Of a DNA stretch of 64,000 bases, positions 42,113-59,629 are shown one piece after another (position 1 is the stretch's first letter; every line of letters begins with the position of its first letter). Under the pieces are notes generated by a model. That model saw only the letters and a list, made by a program, of their open reading frames with translations. It was not told the DNA's origin and searched no databases. The translations under genes and the position numbers were made by a program. Origin of the DNA: Rhododendron vialii (taxonomy: Eukaryota; Streptophyta; Magnoliopsida; Ericales; Ericaceae); contig NC_080567.1 in assembly GCF_030253575.1 (NCBI RefSeq), positions 31,446,501 through 31,510,500 of the forward strand, written 5' to 3'.

Positions 42113-45100
42113 TTACAGACGATAATTTATGGACGAGAGCTGCCCAGATATTTTTGTTTTGCAGGATGGACACATAAAACCAACTGAATCTGATTGAGCT
42201 TCAGATTCAAAGGCCTCATAGTTAAATTCTGTTGTGCACCATACACACACAGCTGCAAATTGGCGTCTGCAATCAATGTTTACCTCTGATTGAAATGTGG
42301 CAGAAGAATTAAAAACCTCTTCCATTATTTCATCATTTGCCACATTCACGGATACCTCTGGAAAAGGTGGTAATTCTTGCCCATTCATAAAACTGAATTG
42401 GAGGTGTTCCATTTCCTCCAACCTCAGCTCATCAAAGCCAGTTACATTGTCCAGCTTCTGATATAGGGTGCCAAATTCATCCTCACCCTGTGAATGAACA
42501 CAACCGCAGGACCATTAATTCCTCAGATACAAAATAGAGCAGTTAAGCATCTCATGAGGGGGAAAAGGAAGATGTGCCCAACTATCATATAATAGAAGAC
42601 AAAAGTAAATTGTAAAGGAGTCTACCACACCTGGTGTAATCTGGCCAACAAGAAGTACCAGAGAAGGCAAACCAAATCTTTATTTCCCATTTAAGCTTTA
42701 CAGCATCTCATTTTGGAAATTTTGTGGATATAAAGTTCAAGACAAATAGAACAAAATGCTTTCGTTCTTTTTGACATTTTGTGGACCCTAGAAATTTCAG
42801 AGAATCACAAAGAACAAGAACAAATAGCCCAAAGAAGGCCAAAATAACAACTGAAATTGTGAAACAAATATACGCGAAATTTGAACTCTTTCCAACCAAA
42901 TAAAAACTTGCACGGCTCAGAGGGCTAGAATTGTTACCTTATTCGAGAGGGCGGTAGATGACGGAAAGCAGTCGAATGATTGCGTCATGGTCATTGAAGA
43001 GTCGGCAATTCCACTCTGAAGACCAATTTCATTGACAGTTTGATCTGAAGACCAAGTTACTGCAACATGACTTGGTGTAAGTTGGCTGTTCAAACCACTT
43101 TCTTGCTCACTATTTCCATGTTTTTCCACTTCACTACCTTCAGTATGCTCAAATGTACCAGCGCAAACTGCCATCACATTACTCTCAACATGAGAAATGT
43201 CAACACTGTTCACCTTCTGTTTTTCACTGATTATGCACTGGACATAATTCTCATTAAAGCCTTGATTCTTAGTCATGCAATCTTCCAATTCCCGTCCATT
43301 ATGATCAGAAGCCAATTCATGGTCAGAAATAACAGCCTGATGTTCTGGAGAAATCTCAACACTGTTCACCTTCTCTTTATCACTAATTATGCACTGGGCA
43401 TAATTTTGATTAAAGCTGTGATCTGGAATGCTCTTAGTCGTGCAATCTTCCGATTCCCGTCCATTAGGATCAGAAGCCAATTCATGGTCAGAATTAACAA
43501 CATGATGTTCAGGAACACTCGCCACTTCCAGCCTATCAGGAGAGGAACCACCATTTGCTTTATCATTCTGTTCGGCAGATGAAGTATCTAAAATAGAACT
43601 TTGGGCAATTTCGATCAGAGCATCCATTTTAGAGATCCTAGGTGGTAACTTATCCTGAGATGGAGACGCATCGCTCTTGTGAACGGTGGCCTCACCTGGC
43701 AATTCTTCTGAATGTCTAACATGGTTTCTTACATGGACACCCACATGACCATTGTAACTCCGTCGTTCCTGAAATACCTTGTGACAAATCTGGCATTCAT
43801 ATTTTCCATCTTGTTTAATAATTACACCTTCTCCAATGGATGAACCCAGTCTATACCTCTTAGTGGTCCTCTGGTGAAATGTCATCAGGTGCTTCAAATA
43901 GGGATTCTTTTCATCAAAGGTCATGTTGCACTTGTAACACTCGAAGAGATCCCGTACTTGAACCTCAGGCAGATTGTCAATCCCTATTAAGTTAAATTCC
44001 ATCCCCTTCACATGAGGTATAGATGTCTTGGGCACCAATTTGAGATTCTTATGAAGAACACCTGCGCGCTGTGGCACATCCCGTTAACTATTGCAAAAAA
44101 AATCTTACTGTAACAAACGCTAGACACATAATCTACTTACATCGTCAGAAGCCAATACATAGACTTGCAGATTGTCATCTCCCATCAGATCCATTTGCTG
44201 GCTTGCATCATTGAGTCCGAAATATGACTGCAAAAATGAAGAAGCTTCTTTGCAGGATGCAAACTGTTGTCCATCAGGGCTGAAAAGTGCCAAGTACATT
44301 AACAACATTTCAGGCCCAGCAAGCAAAGGAGAATGTGAGACTAATGGCTACCAATATGTGCAAAACAATACTTGCAGCAAATCAAAAGAATCAGAGGAAG
44401 TCTAATGTCTGAAGAAACTGATCCCGTTGTAAAAGAAGAGCTTAGAAAAGCATGACACAAAACTTCGTTAGCTGATTAGCTCCTCCAACACAAATCCTGG
44501 CATGATGTCACTCAGACTCACTCCTAATTGAAATACACACCTGTCCTCTCTTTCCTTCTCCATAAGCAAAATATCCAAAAATCCACCAGCACCATGAATT
44601 ACTTTTTGGTTTCTAAGACCAGCAATGGCAACAAATGTAGACATTTCAATAAGGCAGGAACCAATCATTGGGATAGTCCAGCATGTGGTCAAGATACAAG
44701 GATGCCATATCCCCATCACCGCGAAGTAAGTGCTTACTGGAGTTAAAAGTGTGAGCTTGAACATTCATTGTACAACACATTATACCACAGGTCAAAACAC
44801 GAAACCGTGATTTGAATAAGGCTAGTTCCAGTATAAAAGTATAAAAATTTTAGGTTAAAAAAGACGCATATACGTATTAAGGAAGGAAATTTAACCATAT
44901 TTTCAATCACATACCCTTAATCCAGAGTAAGTGCCTAAACAAAACATCAAAATTCCAAATGTAACATATGTAATTATTATATTTGCAAAACACATCAATA
45001 ACTCTGAAGTAGAACTGTAGAAGTGCACCAGATCTCCACAAGGCAAAAAATGTATAGTCCCTTCGGGGGACATCTGATAAAATTGGAACAAAAGAAGACA

Positions 45101-51100: not shown

Positions 51101-53945
51101 TTGGCCATCTTTTCATTTGCATCTGAGGCTGCCCTTCTTAATTTAATAACCCTTCGAGCAAAGGAGTGTCCTACTTTTGGAAGACACTGTGACCCCGGCT
51201 TCCGCATGAAGAGGTAACCATAGAATCCATTACTTTGGAAAGACAACATTCTGTACTTAAGGCGCAAATAAGAGGCAATCAACCAATGGAGCCTTGTCAA
51301 AAAGCATCTGAAAAAATCCTAGCTCTTACATTCTATTAGAGCATTCAAACCAAAATTAATTGCCAATGAGTGGAGAGGCCGCCCAGACTCGTATATACTA
51401 ATTTTGGAAGTGATAATTCATCATTTACAAATATGGGACAAGCTCTAAAAGAAAAATACATTGGATTGTATAATCGTGCGCGAGATTCCTTAATAACCAC
51501 ATGGAGCAGGATAATCCAGAATCTTGCATTAGTGTTCTACCTGATGTATTAAATTGTACTAGAATATGTTTGAATCGACAGATGTTAAGAAGCTGAACAC
51601 CAATCATCCTCAGATGACGAAAATGTGGACAAGGGGGCAATTGTTGGGTTAGCCTTCCCATGTGGTCACGATACAACTCATACAAGGATATCACGTCTCC
51701 CATCGCTTGGTGAAGTATGCACACCAAGTCCTTTTAAGTGAAACATGGGGTCCTTTAATGGAGAACTCAATCCATGTGAGTCTGGCTAGCAAAAAGGGAA
51801 AACATTATTCAATGTGTGAGGACATTGCCTAGTCGTATCAGGAGCGTCCGTTGACAGCATATCAGCTTAAATGTACCCTACTCACTTGAAATCCATAGTA
51901 CCACATCATCATGAAATTCAAACAAACTAACAAAAGCAACTACTCGAAATAAGCGTATACTCTCAAGTCTCAATAGAACAGTGAGCACAATAATAAACAT
52001 TACCAAAACCCCTTTATATACAAAGACTCCACTGCATATACTTCAACAATCTCAAATTATTTCCATACACCAAACCATGATTGGTCGTATCCAACTCGGA
52101 GTTGTCCACCTAATATTCAAGCAACAAACTCCCGATGACGTGCCCCATATATCAAACCGACTTATATTGATGAGAAACCAAGACACATATTAGTCTACAA
52201 ATGCACAATCGTTTCAGAATAACCTGACAACCAAATAATCAAATCAAATAGATTATACAAAATATCAGTGTATATGCCGTGAATGTAAGCGTGTAAATGT
52301 GTATATATCAAGAGCAACAAATGCACAAAATATATAGCATGTTCTAATAAGAAAAAGTATCATCTATTGCATCATGAATCACGTGGATATCCCAAGAATA
52401 TTTGCATAAACATAAGAGACATTTAGAGATACTTTACATTTTACTACTCAAGGAAGAAGCAAAAGGGGGGCCAAGGGTTGCCTTGGTCACCCTCAAGTTT
52501 CTTGTAATTCCTATACTACCCCAATATTTTTGCAGATTTCTATAATATACAACATAAAATGGTCCCTGTGTTTTGTAGAATTCCTCTTGTTGCCTCTCTC
52601 TTTTGAGAGTATTCTCTAAAATATGGCATGACTTCACTTATTTTCACATTAAACAATACCTTCAATTCTGACAACTTAATAAGTTTCATAATGCTTTTGT
52701 ATGAAATACCATTTGTTTTAGAAGTAACTCTTTTTTCTTGGCTGTAATTATATTGGTCACCCCAACATCTGATTCCTCACCTTGTCCATATTACCACCAA
52801 ACATACTAAATTAAAACATATGTATCATATCATATAGATATCTTAAGATATTTAAACATAAGAATTAAGATACATTAAGAAACATATATTTAGAGATACG
52901 CATCAATTTTACCTCCAGACCTTTAAACGTGTATGGAATCGTAACCCATACGATATCGTGAATTGTAAGATCTTGACAACATTACATATAAAAGAATACA
53001 CAATTGAGAGCAACAAATGCCAAATATCAAGAGAAGACCAACCCATATCATGAATTGTAAGATCTCGACAACATTCCATATAAACGCATACACAATTGAG
53101 AGCAACAAATGCTAAATATCAAGAGAAAACCACCTTATGTATCGGCGGCAGTAAACCGACACGCGGCCGTCTTTCCTCTTCAGTGCCAGCAAAAGCCTCC
53201 AACCAACGGGCAACCAGTCACCAAACTCACAAGCACTAACAATCCTCCGCTTCTTTCTCCTGCTCCCCCACTGCCCTTCTAAACCCCCCAAAACCCCTAG
53301 AAACTGCTCTTCACTCTCCAACCCCACAGTCCTCCTCCTGAACTCCCCTGCATACAATTCATCCCCATTCTCCAAGGCCTTGAAATCAACCACCACCCCA
53401 TTCTTATTCACAATCTCCAACTGAGTGTTCGCAACCGGTACCGCCACCGGATTATTACTAGGATTCCTCTCTCTCTTCCGCTTCCTCGGCCCTTGAGAGA
53501 CCACCATTTGCATGTCCCCGGCGCAAACGACCGGTTGCGGCGGCGGCAATTCGGTTTCGCTGCCGCCGGTGATGAGGTGTTTGAGGAAATTGACGATGGT
53601 TGTGTTCTCGGCGCGTTCAGGGTCGTTCGGGGAGAGAGAGGAGGGGAGGGGTCTAGGGTTGGAGGGGAGGCGGTGGCGCAGGCCGGCGGAGGAGTGGTGG
53701 TGGTGGTGGTGGTGGCGGGAGTAGGTCTGGCGGCGGCTGCCGGCGCTCTCGTTGAAGATGGAGGGGTTGATTTGGGGGGCGATGGCGTCGTTTGGGCGGC
53801 GGAGGTCGAGGGCGAAGTCGGAGCATAGGGAGAGGGCGTGGAGCTCGGATTGGGAGAGTTTGGTTATGTCGATGTGAGAGAGGGATTCCGGCTTGGGCCC
53901 ACCTGGTGGTAGTGGCGGCTTGGTGGTGGCGGGCACCGTCACCAT
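42113..53945 (-). CDS. MBD8: Methyl-CpG-binding-domain protein MBD8
   Basis: Nuclear chromatin-associated protein, 818 residues. Exons: 53134-53945, 44141-44279, 42938-44068 and 42113-42487; phases agree. The N terminus carries the family signature (LSQSELHALSLCS, NESAGSRRQTYSR), then a His-rich run and a basic RKRKRER patch. The MBD is split by intron 1: GSRRKKRR, FGDWLPVGWRLLL, then YI-SPDGQQFASCKEASSFLQSYFG. Exon 3 holds two C2H2 fingers, CYKC...HLMTFH (about 361-382) and CQIC...HVGVH (about 407-430), and an acidic region with two tandem copies of a block of about 50 residues. The C terminus has paired cysteines (CVWC, CPSC). It is longer than Arabidopsis MBD8 as I remember it (about 520). 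Whether it binds methyl-CpG cannot be judged; several plant MBDs do not. Intron 1 is 8854 nt and full of transposons. Confidence 0.92.
45444..46239. mobile_element. hAT-like MITE rich in CGGATACG (796 bp)
   Basis: Inverted ends CTATGAAGCACGGATAC and GTATCTGTGCTTCATAG, flanked by a perfect 8-bp duplication GTTCCGTA (45436-45443, 46240-46247). Subterminal regions carry many CGGATACG/CGTATCCG words. Lies in MBD8 intron 1. No transposase ORF. Confidence 0.88.
46240..48189. other. MBD8 intron 1, unassigned part
   Basis: AT-rich intronic DNA without supported genes. A GAACCAAAACATGTTCGTA.GAAACTTT word occurs twice (about 47248 and 47294), a local duplication. Confidence 0.45.
48190..48572 (-). mobile_element. 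TRIM retrotransposon (383 bp)
   Basis: Two direct terminal repeats of about 107 bp (48190-48296 and 48465-48572), about 80 percent alike, start TGTTAGAG and end in CA when read on the minus strand. Just inside the first is TTGTATCAGAAC, near to the initiator-tRNA-Met primer-binding site TGGTATCAGAGC. Just before the second is a GGGGGAG purine tract. The internal part is about 170 bp and non-coding. This is the full layout of a terminal-repeat retrotransposon in miniature. Confidence 0.88.
49080..49176 (-). mobile_element. Degraded solo LTR of the same TRIM family
   Basis: Matches the TRIM terminal repeat (ACCATCCAACTTGAAACCAATT to GTGGGACAAACTCTAAC) with gaps. No partner repeat is close by. 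Confidence 0.65.
50353..50475. mobile_element. Palindromic MITE (123 bp)
   Basis: Arms of about 50 bp, GGGAAATGATATTGGCACTCC and its complement at the right, with a short loop. A perfect 8-bp duplication TATAATAG flanks it (50345-50352, 50476-50483). Confidence 0.85.
51338..51448 (-). mobile_element. Second degraded solo LTR of the TRIM family
   Basis: AGAGCATTCAAACCAAAATT to GGGACAAGCTCTAA matches the TRIM terminal repeat over about 105 bp with substitutions. With 49080-49176 it brackets about 2.2 kb that might be a remnant internal region, but no pol motif is visible there. Confidence 0.65.
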
Positions 53946-54282
53946 TTCTAGTAGAGAGAGAGAGAGACTGAGAGAACTAAGTGGCGAAGAGGGGAGAGAG
54001 TGAAGAGGGGGAGGAGGGAGAGATGGCAGGAGTTTTACAGATGCTTTTCCTGTCTGGAGTCTGGAAAAGGTGACACGTAGAAATATTTTTTACAAAAAAA
54101 AAATGCAACGCTACGTACACTCGACCGATTACTACTCGACTACTTCTCTCACATGTGTGTTTCTCCGAACTCAGGGTCCTGTTATGCACAATTTCGGCCC
54201 TTGGATCAATTTGACGACTCGAATCTCATCTTAGAATTGTTCCCATTTTCCTCGGCTCTATATATTTAATTGTGAAATGAGT

Positions 54283-55706: not shown

Positions 55707-57050
55707 AACGCCATATGGAGACATGAAGTAAAAGTAAATACCAAACAGAATTGTTCCTGTGACTGGATTGTGTTGCACAAAACATGTTCATGGAAGAATT
55801 TGATCGGAAATTCGTTTTCCCGTCGAGTTGATAAGTGGACTATGAGTTTTGTTTTCCTTTTACTTGCACCAAAATGCAATGACATATGTTGTCCTCGTCG
55901 TCGTTTTTGTCGTTTTATCTCATTAGTTACGTGGCAAAACGAAGAACCAATTACGAGAATGCAAGTATATTTCCAAACAAAACAACCGACGTACTAATAC
56001 AAAACGCTGTTTAACATTTTTCTGTTGGTACTGGGTTGATTTTGATCACTTTCTTCGTTGATCTTCCATCTATTGGAGCTCTTATTCATACAGAACAAGT
56101 AGATAGTAGCCATGAAGCAATGTTTTTGGGTAAGTTAATTCGTTGAAAAACAAAATCACTATGCTAATCGGGTTGGGGTTAAGATTGCCACTGCTGCCCT
56201 ACGGGTACGGGTGAACAAAAGCGTACTCCAAAATCGGAAACAAAACCACCCTACACACAAAAGAGGTAAGGGTATCCTACTACGTATGGGGAACAATAGG
56301 CTAAGTTGTGATATTCCGAAATCGATTCTTAGCTAAATTCGAGAGAAATCAATTGGAGTGTCGATTCTCTAAAATTAACCAAGTGAATGAAAAGCTATGT
56401 TAAAGAGGTAATCAACATATAGGAAAAGATATTAGGGTTTCAAATCCACCCTAGCTCACAACTATGGTATGGCTCAAGTCTCAAGATTTAATGAATCGAC
56501 TTAACATTGACCTGCGCAGCTATAAACCCTAGCAGTATCGCCAAGTAGATTGATGGAATCAAAAACTGGCATAGCCCATCTCCGAATAGCACGGATGTCT
56601 TTCGATGTAATCTACAACGATCTGCCTTCTCTAAGCATTGCCTATCTCACTTTTCGATTGCAATTACAAAGAAAACCATTGCATAACCGTGTAATTGTAA
56701 TAAAAATCAATCACAGACAAGGAAAATCGATCATTCCATAGATCAGAAGCCTAAAACTTTGTACAATAGTCGGCCAATCAACAAATATGGAAATACAAAA
56801 TTAAATGTTAGTACTTGCTAGGGTTTCATCTAATCCCTAAGGAGATGGTTAGCTGCTCATGGAGGATATAAGATTCAAAGCTCTCGATAAAATCTCCATG
56901 GAAAACCTTCAAGATTTCCTTCTTATTCAATCCATTGGCATCTCCAAACCTTGAACCACCATAATAATCATTAGAGGTATATATCCATCCAATTGAGGCT
57001 GAAAAACTCTTTAAGAAATGGAATCAGAAAATTTTGTTGAGTTGCATATA
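55707..57050. other. Intergenic DNA, no gene seen
   Basis: AT-rich. The ORFs at 55641-55997 (partly over the retroposon) and 56550-56741 have no recognisable family. Confidence 0.45.
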
Positions 57051-57195
57051 TGCCCCTCAGCAATCCTTGTGCGCCCGGGCGCATTCAGAATCTCTTTACT
57101 GGTGTAATGTGCCTCAGGCGCATTTAAACTGCGCCCTGAGCAAATCCAAGTTTTCTCTACTGCTGTAATGCACCTCAGGCGCAATTCCTATGCCC

Positions 57196-57234
<39 letters not shown>

Positions 57235-57305: not shown

Positions 57306-57616
57306 CGAATTTCCTAGATCACTCTTTTTTTCCATTTGGCTCCCATTGGGAATCCATGTTTGACATTCCTTTGAGACTTTCAAAGTTTTCAAAACAATGT
57401 CAAACTTTTTGCGATTGGCTTAGTCGACCTACGATCAAGAAAATGACTTAATGTACCAGAAGTAACAAGGGAAGTAGATATAAGAAATGCAAGTTGGACA
57501 GGTGTGCATTTCGGCACTTATCACTAATCAACAATTATCGACATAACTCTAATAAAATGCCACCTAATGTGTTTGAAATAGCTTTGAGACTGAGCTACTA
57601 GTAGATATCACATTCT

Positions 57617-59629
57617 TCAACTGCGATTTTGAGCCCTTCGCTTTCTGGAGAAAACCACACATCTAACAACTAACAGCAACGCAAACGTTACGAGTACGAT
57701 CACAGTAATGAGAACAATCTTTGTTGTCCTAGACGATCTTGAATGCCTTCTGGGAATGCTCTCTTGTGTTGAAGGGCAAGACAGATTGTGAGGCAAACAT
57801 AGATTGGCATTCCCGGCGAAAGATATGTTACTAAAGTACTCAAACTGATTACCACTAGGTAGTCTTCCTGAAAAGTTGTTATAAGAAAGGTCTAAGATTG
57901 TCAAACTAATCATCGACCCCATTTCCTCCGGTATTGGACCACTCAGATGGTTCCTTGACAAGTCGAGAAAAGTCAGTTTCCTCAGCTTTGAGATTCCTAT
58001 TGGAATTTCACCATCCAAACTGTTTTTGCTCAAATCAATTGAAGTCAGTTCAGGACAATCAACAATTGAAGTTGGAACGCGACCACTAATGTTGTTGCCA
58101 CTTATGTCCAGCTTCGAAAGCTTCTTTAGATTGGAGATTTCCACCGGAAGCTCACCAAAAAGTCTGTTCGTTTCCAGAGATAAAGACGTCAAGCTAACCA
58201 GATTTCCGATCGCAGGAGGGATTTTACCGGCGATGGAATTGTTAGACAGTGCGAAGGTATCAAGCTTTTTTGCTGACATTTGAGGTGGAAGTTCTCCGGT
58301 GAAGTGGTTGTCGTTGAGTTCAAGAAAGTTTAACAATGGCAAGCTGAGGAGCCTAGAAGGAATTGTTCCATTTAACAAATTCTTCATCAGTCTCACCCTA
58401 ACAAGCGATTCACACTCTCCAATTTCTTCAGGAATGGATCCGGAAAAGTAGTTTTCCATCAGTATTAACATCCGCAATTTCCCTCCTCTGCACAAATGGC
58501 AAGGAATTTTTCCAGTGAGTTTGTTGCCAGTAACATCAAGCAGTTGCAAGTTTCCTTTTAGGCCAAGATTTTCTGGCAGTTCTGAGGTAAAATTGTTTCC
58601 CCATATCTGTAATACCTCTAGATTGGGAAGATCGCCAATGAAGGACGGAACGGGACCATGAAAATGGTTTACAAAAAGATTAAGCAAGATAAGGTTCTTC
58701 AGTTCTGACAAACTCTCCGGTAAATGGCCACTGAGTTCATTAACTGAGAGGTCTAGAGACTCCAAACTGATCAAACCAGAGAGTTCAGAAGGTATTTGAC
58801 CCCCGAGCTGATTCGTTTGGAGATAGAGTTGTTCTAACATCTTTAAATTACCCAGAGTTTTTGGAATTTCACCTGATAGGTTACAACTAGCCATATCTAG
58901 TATTATGAGCGAGCTCAGTAATCCAAACTCAGGCGGAATCCCTCCTTCAAAAGAATTGAAGTACCCAAGATGGAGTTCTGTAAGGTTTAACAAACGGCAC
59001 AAACTCCCTGGAATCTTTCCAGTAAGTCCATTTCCCTGTAAACCTAAACTCTCAAGGCTCTGGAGCTCAGAGTAAACCTTTGGAATTTCCCCAGAGAAGT
59101 AATTCCCACCAAGATGAAGAGTTTTGAGCCCCTTCAGCTTTACAAACTCTGTTGGAAGTTTTCCGGAAAGGTTGTTATTGTACACATTGAAAACCTCGAG
59201 CTCTGTCAGTTTAGCTATCATGCTTCTATGGATGGTACCACTGAAGTTGTTGGAAGATATGTTAATGAACTTGATGGAGGTAAGATTCGACATTTCCAGA
59301 GGAAGCTCACCAGTGAGATTGGTAGCAGAAAGAGTGAGACTGATGAGGTTTTTCAAGTGGCCTATCTCCGGTGGAATTGAACCGGATAGAGGGACAAACG
59401 AGATGCTGATAGATGTTACTTGCGAGTAGTCGTCGCAAGTTACTCCGGAGAACGAACAATGGGCAGAAGGAGGGGAGGAGTGGTTCCAGTCTTCGAGTCC
59501 TGATCCCGATGGTCCCACCATGGAGGACTTGAGCTTCAAAAGCACTTCCAGGTCAGAAAGAGAATGGGAGACTGAAACAAAGAGGATGAAGATAGAAAGG
59601 AGCAAGAAATAACTAAAAGACATCTTCAT
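57617..59629 (-). CDS. CLAVATA1-like LRR receptor lacking a kinase domain
   Basis: 670 residues, single exon. Signal peptide (MKMSFSYFLLLSIFILFVS), then the LRR N-cap with LLKLKSSM and CSFSGVTCDD, and about 21 LRRs whose wording follows CLV1 (LHLGGNYFSGEIP, GYFNSFEGGIPPEFG, LDMASCNLSGEIP, LEVLQIWGNNFTSELPENL). A C-cap (NANLCLPHNLSCPS) follows, then one membrane span (IVLITVIVLVTFALLLVV) and a basic tail FSRKRRAQNRS ending in TGA. In CLV1 relatives the tail runs on into a kinase; nothing kinase-like follows here for at least 1 kb, and the stop is directly after the tail. CLV1-class receptors bind CLE peptides. This product could act like a receptor-like protein or dominant-negative partner, or be a truncated pseudogene with an intact ectodomain ORF. 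Confidence 0.9.
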   Translation of the reverse strand: MKMSFSYFLLLSIFILFVSVSHSLSDLEVLLKLKSSMVGPSGSGLEDWNHSSPPSAHCSFSGVTCDDYSQVTSISISFVPLSGSIPPEIGHLKNLISLTLSATNLTGELPLEMSNLTSIKFINISSNNFSGTIHRSMIAKLTELEVFNVYNNNLSGKLPTEFVKLKGLKTLHLGGNYFSGEIPKVYSELQSLESLGLQGNGLTGKIPGSLCRLLNLTELHLGYFNSFEGGIPPEFGLLSSLIILDMASCNLSGEIPKTLGNLKMLEQLYLQTNQLGGQIPSELSGLISLESLDLSVNELSGHLPESLSELKNLILLNLFVNHFHGPVPSFIGDLPNLEVLQIWGNNFTSELPENLGLKGNLQLLDVTGNKLTGKIPCHLCRGGKLRMLILMENYFSGSIPEEIGECESLVRVRLMKNLLNGTIPSRLLSLPLLNFLELNDNHFTGELPPQMSAKKLDTFALSNNSIAGKIPPAIGNLVSLTSLSLETNRLFGELPVEISNLKKLSKLDISGNNISGRVPTSIVDCPELTSIDLSKNSLDGEIPIGISKLRKLTFLDLSRNHLSGPIPEEMGSMISLTILDLSYNNFSGRLPSGNQFEYFSNISFAGNANLCLPHNLSCPSTQESIPRRHSRSSRTTKIVLITVIVLVTFALLLVVRCVVFSRKRRAQNRS

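Follow-up and report, generated by a model that had tools for sequence, protein, structure and literature searches.

A CLAVATA1-clade receptor gene without its kinase in Rhododendron vialii

We found, in a stretch of 64,000 nucleotides of Rhododendron vialii (C11:31446501-31510500; hereafter the window), a CLAVATA1 (CLV1)-like receptor gene in which the reading frame is intact, the ectodomain is of the CLV1 clade, the kinase has been lost and the rate of evolution equals that of full-length CLV1. It is best explained, in our view, as an old CLAVATA1 paralogue that has persisted as a membrane-anchored protein after losing its kinase, perhaps restraining CLV1/BAM signalling as a decoy or in a dominant-negative manner; we give this reading a probability of about one half.

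Architecture and relatives of the reading frame

The ORF lies at positions 57617-59629 of the window on the minus strand and runs in one frame over 670 codons from ATG to TGA (682 codons when measured stop to stop). The five remaining frames of the segment contain 15 to 48 stops each and the open frame is therefore not a product of chance. A first-pass annotation, made from the letters alone, had described a stop-free frame of 670 codons with a complete, CLV1-type ectodomain; the frame was recovered as described, the strand being minus. Reading frame, Pfam and genome matches together identify the product as a kinase-less CLV1-like receptor of 670 amino acids. Pfam returned LRRNT_2 (1.5e-9) and LRR models, and no kinase domain at E-values up to 0.001; the cytoplasmic Ser/Thr kinase domain that characterizes the CLAVATA1 clade is thus absent.

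The N-terminus and residues 638-658 are hydrophobic, and the layout of the protein (all coordinates on the minus strand) is as follows: i) a probable signal peptide of about residues 1-24 (59558-59629), by hydropathy only, with a predicted helix at residues 5-18 in the structural model; ii) an LRR ectodomain, residues 25-612 (57794-59557), delimited by Pfam, alignment and the predicted model; iii) a transmembrane span, residues 638-658 (57656-57718), placed by hydropathy and devoid of a GxxxG motif; and iv) a basic cytoplasmic tail of 12 residues, 659-670 (57620-57655), with a counted net charge of +5, followed by the TGA. The protein was modelled from an 11-row alignment without templates. 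The predicted model is an unbroken solenoid (whole-model mean pLDDT 90.5) with low confidence for residues 615-637, just outside the membrane, and its top PDB matches are the ectodomains of HSL1, TDR/PXY and HAESA (TM-score by target ~0.9); none of the 40 PDB sequences retrieved at E-values up to 1e-40 was named CLV1 or BAM.

The genome (532.6 Mb, 13 contigs) was searched with the whole protein, which yielded 149 matching places. The best non-self match (58% identity), at C7:41.01 Mb, is a canonical full-length CLV1 of 981 amino acids with its kinase present, in line with the CLV1 label of the first-pass annotation. This gene has one intron, located inside the kinase after GSYGYIAP, which is where CLV1 genes carry an intron. 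The next matches were found on C13 (44%), at C11:29.69 Mb (45%), on C10 (46%) and, lower down, on C8 (47%, partial), and these four we take, from the tree, to be BAM-like. Over the ectodomain, the kinase-less protein shares 58% identity with C7 and 44-48% with the BAM-like rows, four in number. A seven-row protein tree, in which the Arabidopsis CLV1 row is provisional, places it in a clade (100/100) with C7 and Arabidopsis CLV1, without a resolved order within that clade; the tips measure 0.38 for the kinase-less protein, 0.37 for C7 and 0.53 for the Arabidopsis row. The C10/C8 pair is younger (tips 0.21 and 0.18). As judged from the identities and the tree, the ectodomain groups with CLV1 and not with the BAM-like receptors. 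It is also complete: relative to C7 it has no insertion exceeding 3 residues, nor was any repeat gained or lost, which together with the Pfam LRRs bears out what had been proposed from the letters.

A segmental duplication shared with the C7 CLV1 was considered and dropped: in a search with four neighbouring ORFs joined into one chimeric query, none of the 14 matches lay near C7:41.0 Mb (4 of the 14 were the window itself) and no synteny was seen. The neighbourhood holds some further genes. A plus-strand LRR receptor kinase (L044) occupies positions 1-2604 of the window and extends some 1.9 kb beyond its left end; it is distant from CLV1, with 37% and 24% identity to the CLV1 kinase in two pieces. 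The minus-strand ORFs at 42917-44083 and 53112-54089 have relatives (46-49%) lying no more than 4.2 kb apart on G000:C6:12211859-12215984 and are perhaps one gene with a long intron. To the right of the window (L036-L041, about C11:31.53-31.59 Mb) there are what we take to be glycosyltransferase-like genes in tandem, at least three in number, and a polyprotein resembling that of a retroelement.

The missing kinase and the DNA beyond the stop

The stop codon (57617-57619, minus strand) falls, in the alignment, on the juxtamembrane Trp codon with which the kinase side begins in the relatives (KSRAW, NSNTW and SSSSW in C7, C13 and C11b, respectively). These are all three relatives whose reading extends to that codon, and it is TGG in each. 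The span position and the basic tail are as in C7, with which ectodomain and span are 58% identical over 666 columns. The earlier description of an ORF ending after a short basic tail, where its relatives enter the kinase, was accurate. The codons past the TGA read AGA ATG versus AAA ATG in C11b, a faint likeness that is too short to count.

No remnant of a kinase was recognized by eye in the three minus-strand frames below the stop, down to position 56000. The search for a CLV1 kinase near the locus that had been recommended at first pass gave chance-level matches only when the C7 kinase was compared with the 10 kb downstream of the stop (best E-value 0.094 in blastn and 2.5 in tblastn). For the window as a whole, including the 57 kb downstream of the stop, no CLV1-type kinase was recovered; the only hits to the CLV1 kinase better than E 4 belong to the distant plus-strand LRR kinase at the left edge. 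Twenty-five loci were extracted from the 149 genome matches: all 24 besides the window locus (L010-L033) have kinase sequence on the matching strand (one of them, L020, only part of it), and the window locus has none.

The C7 CLV1 kinase was also used as a query against the whole genome, with 127 of 2576 candidates being scored. In the resulting list of 132 matches, C7 itself came first (99%), followed by four BAM-like loci (78, 78, 71 and 77%), each adjoining one of the BAM-like ectodomains found with the whole protein, and the remaining listed matches reached at most 59% identity. A gene fission that left an orphan CLV1 kinase elsewhere was rejected, as there is none among these 132 matches. 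The joining of a kinase exon by splicing is unlikely because no CLV1-type kinase occurs in the 57 kb downstream and, in the matches listed, only C7 and the four BAM-like loci exceed 60%. The same data bear on the more general suspicion of an artefact of annotation or assembly, by which a distant kinase is spliced on or an assembly error accounts for the TGA or the missing kinase. Assemblies can err at long C-tracts, and one occurs close by; nevertheless, the 382 bases that separate the TGA from this tract already lack above-chance kinase homology, and the only CLV1-type kinase among the listed matches is the one on C7. We consider an artefact highly improbable.

Two dispersed repeat families were found beyond the stop. 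The first (57308-57523, from genome matches) is matched in part, at 70-74%, by one place on C7, two on C10 and one on C11, and ends 93 bases past the stop of the ORF. The second (57070-57186) adjoins the C-tract and makes up about 50 of the 57 matches, with many on C3 and C10. The C-tract itself (57193-57234) is 42 bp long. The first-pass annotation had noticed this tract about 300 bases past the stop and had suggested that it may mark a breakpoint: the tract is indeed present, but at a distance of 382 bases and among dispersed repeats, and it is therefore a poor marker, so that we rejected it as the breakpoint. The repeat at 93 bases from the stop fits a replacement of the kinase as well as a decay in place.

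A second LRR receptor that stops just past its span was encountered on the same contig (L020; G000:C11:19668545-19670503). It shares 93.7% DNA identity over 1994 columns with its tandem neighbour L021, which has a kinase, and its likeness to the C7 kinase begins only at kinase position 145, the first part being missing. L020 is a young truncation, probably by deletion.

Constraint and age

The ectodomain was compared with that of the full-length paralogue by a codon model (six sequences, 607 codons, tree fixed beforehand), as had been advised. Synonymous sites are saturated, and the omega values are therefore rough and may describe mostly the time before the truncation: they are 0.14 on the kinase-less branch versus 0.12 on C7 (LR 0.05 for the difference), with an LR of 9.0 against omega = 1 on the kinase-less branch, and 0.168 on that branch versus 0.098 for the rest in a two-rate model (LR 2.1, not significant). 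Tajima-type relative rate tests against C7 were flat with all four outgroups (p 0.43-0.69). In an 11-row alignment we counted positions at which all the other receptors agree, requiring a letter in at least 9 of these 10 rows: the kinase-less protein keeps 70 of 71 such positions and C7 keeps 70 of 72. The likeness to C7 is lowest from about residue 604 on (41%) and amounts to 52-67% elsewhere.

The fate of a kinase left in place was simulated 20 times per point, the transition bias and a rate of 0.1 indels for each substitution being assumed. Remains of the C7 kinase were detected in 20/20 runs up to 0.4 substitutions per site, in 10/20 at 0.5 and in 1/20 at 0.7, and those of the more distant C13 kinase in 19/20 at 0.3, 10/20 at 0.4 and 5/20 at 0.5. 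Neutral copies of the ORF (400 runs) were stop-free in 32.5% of cases at 0.02, 7.75% at 0.05 and 0.75% at 0.1; when the assumed indels were counted as well, 7.5% were intact at 0.01 and 0/400 at 0.02. It follows that if the kinase stayed in place after the stop arose, the ectodomain has been under selection ever since, and that if the kinase was deleted, its loss may be recent. The earlier suggestion of selection on the extracellular part therefore stands for the branch as a whole, on the basis of omega, relative rates and invariant positions; for the period after the loss of the kinase it stands only if the kinase decayed in place.

These results also weigh on the main rival explanation, that of a non-functional gene which lost its kinase so recently, by deletion or replacement, that no decay of the ectodomain ORF is yet to be seen. 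In place of the kinase region there is other DNA, including a dispersed repeat that begins 93 bases past the stop, a young case occurs in the same genome (C11:19.67 Mb), and the saturation of synonymous sites would mask a recent relaxation. On the other hand, the rate equal to that of C7, the near-complete retention of invariant positions and the lack of any stop or frameshift are not what such a gene leads one to expect, and a neutral phase beyond about 0.05 substitutions per site is improbable according to the simulation. The hallmarks of a pseudogene that were looked for (a disrupted frame, relaxed constraint) were not found, where recent relaxation would be hidden by the synonymous saturation. 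Altogether we judge a recent, non-functional truncation to be rather unlikely.

The ligand pocket and comparison with known receptors

The CLE ligand pocket was mapped by alignment with the TDR chain, with the numbering fixed on R421; F161, S162, S187, G210, D255, F279, L301, W325 and R423 then all fell on the right letters. D245, Y269, D293, R411 and R413 of the kinase-less protein correspond to TDR 255, 279, 303, 421 and 423. D303 we took to be a key position in view of its counterpart in CLV1, D295. Of the five key pocket residues so defined (TDR D255, F279, D303, R421 and R423), four are identical and the fifth, Y269, is a conservative change. The contacts between TDR and its CLE peptide are described in PMC4979064, where R421 and R423 are said to contact the C-terminus of the peptide; they match the RxR motif R411-V412-R413 (58391-58399, minus strand, by alignment). 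Arabidopsis CLV1 has Lys413 at the position of TDR R421 (PMC4979064), where both the kinase-less protein and C7 have Arg. D293 (58751-58753, minus strand) aligns with TDR D303 and with D295 of Arabidopsis CLV1, which is changed to Asn (D295N) in clv1-8 (PMC5371295).

Y269 (58823-58825, minus strand, by alignment) lies in the kink pocket, in a column that has Phe in TDR (F279) and in 6/6 of the other CLV1/BAM rows, one of them provisional. Among the 15 mapped positions it is the sole departure from a residue common to these six rows. The kinase-less protein agrees with C7 at 13 of the 15, and the second difference falls at TDR 373, where the alignment column varies. TDR being a different receptor, only 6 of the 15 letters are shared with it. 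TDR F161, S162, L301 and W325 are not kept, and C7 has letters identical to those of the kinase-less protein at all four. The W325 column has Leu in the kinase-less protein and in 6/6 CLV1/BAM rows, which disagrees with the statement in PMC4979064 that W325 is conserved in CLV1 and the BAMs. With Tyr instead of Phe in the kink pocket, ligand binding could be weaker or different.

LRR receptor genes without a kinase are already known. The survey of Man et al. 2020 (PMC7318236) classed 271 of 2536 genes from nine genomes as LRR-only, and 52 of the 271 may be annotation errors; truncated LRR-RLKs beyond such errors occurred in every genome, clade XI_XIIb was among those rich in LRR-only genes, and competitive inhibition was already proposed as a fate of truncated LRR-RLKs. 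The gene described here is, like these paralogues, an LRR receptor gene minus the kinase, and it has the general traits of LRR-only and receptor-like proteins: a signal peptide (by hydropathy only), LRRs, one span, a short tail, no kinase and homology to LRR-RLKs. A case of CLV1 proper is not named in the portion of PMC7318236 that we cite, its clade XI_XIIb tree (Fig. S12) aside, and among the titles and abstracts listed in a literature search none described a naturally occurring kinase-less CLV1 proper. From C7 CLAVATA1 (LRR-RLK subfamily XI) the protein differs by the lack of a kinase, the TGA at the first shared Trp and the Tyr for Phe in the kink pocket.

A receptor-like protein may also signal through a partner, and RLPs are supposed to derive from RLKs after kinase loss (PMC9603095). 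SOBIR1-using LRR-RLPs, which share the ectodomain, span and short tail with the kinase-less protein, have a negative outer juxtamembrane and mostly a GxxxG in the span, and the SOBIR1-dependent ones are further recognized by an island domain before the last four LRRs (PMC10834447). None of these traits is present: the 20 residues before the span have a net charge of +4, the span has no GxxxG and, given an unbroken solenoid and the lack of larger insertions versus C7, there is no island domain. C7, C13 and C11b are similar in this respect (+2, +2 and +1; no GxxxG). The pattern of charge and GxxxG suggests a receptor kinase that was cut short and not an immune RLP.

CLAVATA2 likewise is an LRR membrane protein without kinase in CLE signalling, with a signal peptide, LRRs, a span and a short tail. 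As a signalling receptor-like protein of this kind, the protein would depend on a partner (a CRN-like pseudokinase or full-length CLV1/BAM) for the cytoplasmic part, and its general architecture, which is that of CLV2, as well as the retained key pocket residues agree with this. It is, however, a CLV1 paralogue by sequence, the closest relative found being CLV1, whereas CLV2 is not a truncated LRR-RLK (PMC7318236); moreover, its outer juxtamembrane charge and the missing GxxxG are the reverse of LRR-RLP features (PMC10834447), although the full-length relatives are similar. A CLV2-like signalling role appears improbable to us.

We therefore favour the decoy or dominant-negative role, on account of the receptor-kinase-like traits and of the precedents of PXL1, clv1-8 and clv1-1. 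A kinase-deleted PXL1, built on the reasoning of ligand competition, caused dominant-negative pollen defects and retained its CLE19-dependent pairing with SERK1 (PMC10247778). The receptors of clv1-8 carry a missense change in the ectodomain and interfere with the BAMs (PMC5371295), and in one of two models for the kinase-domain allele clv1-1, CLV3 is sequestered (PMC3023650). DN-PXL1 and clv1-8 thus share with the window gene an ectodomain and a span without a working signal, and they interfere with redundant receptors; the former is a laboratory construct and the latter a missense allele that is not kinase-less, whereas the window gene is a natural, old copy. By analogy, the kinase-less receptor would reach the plasma membrane and would bind a CLE peptide there, perhaps together with a co-receptor; lacking a kinase, it would hold both back and pass no signal on, and CLV1/BAM signalling would thereby be curbed by a decoy or dominant-negative effect. 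More tentatively, it might be a long-maintained natural kinase-less CLAVATA1 that tunes meristem CLE signalling as a dominant-negative form or ligand sink, with the Phe-to-Tyr change setting its preference.

A CLV1-derived antagonist is a testable hypothesis. The interfering forms of CLV1 and PXL1 described in PMC5371295 and PMC10247778 are laboratory alleles or constructs; if the gene described here is functional, plants would themselves make a kinase-less CLV1 antagonist and the ligand-sink idea would become directly testable for CLV1-type ectodomains. Receptor surveys that start from the kinase would overlook genes of this type.
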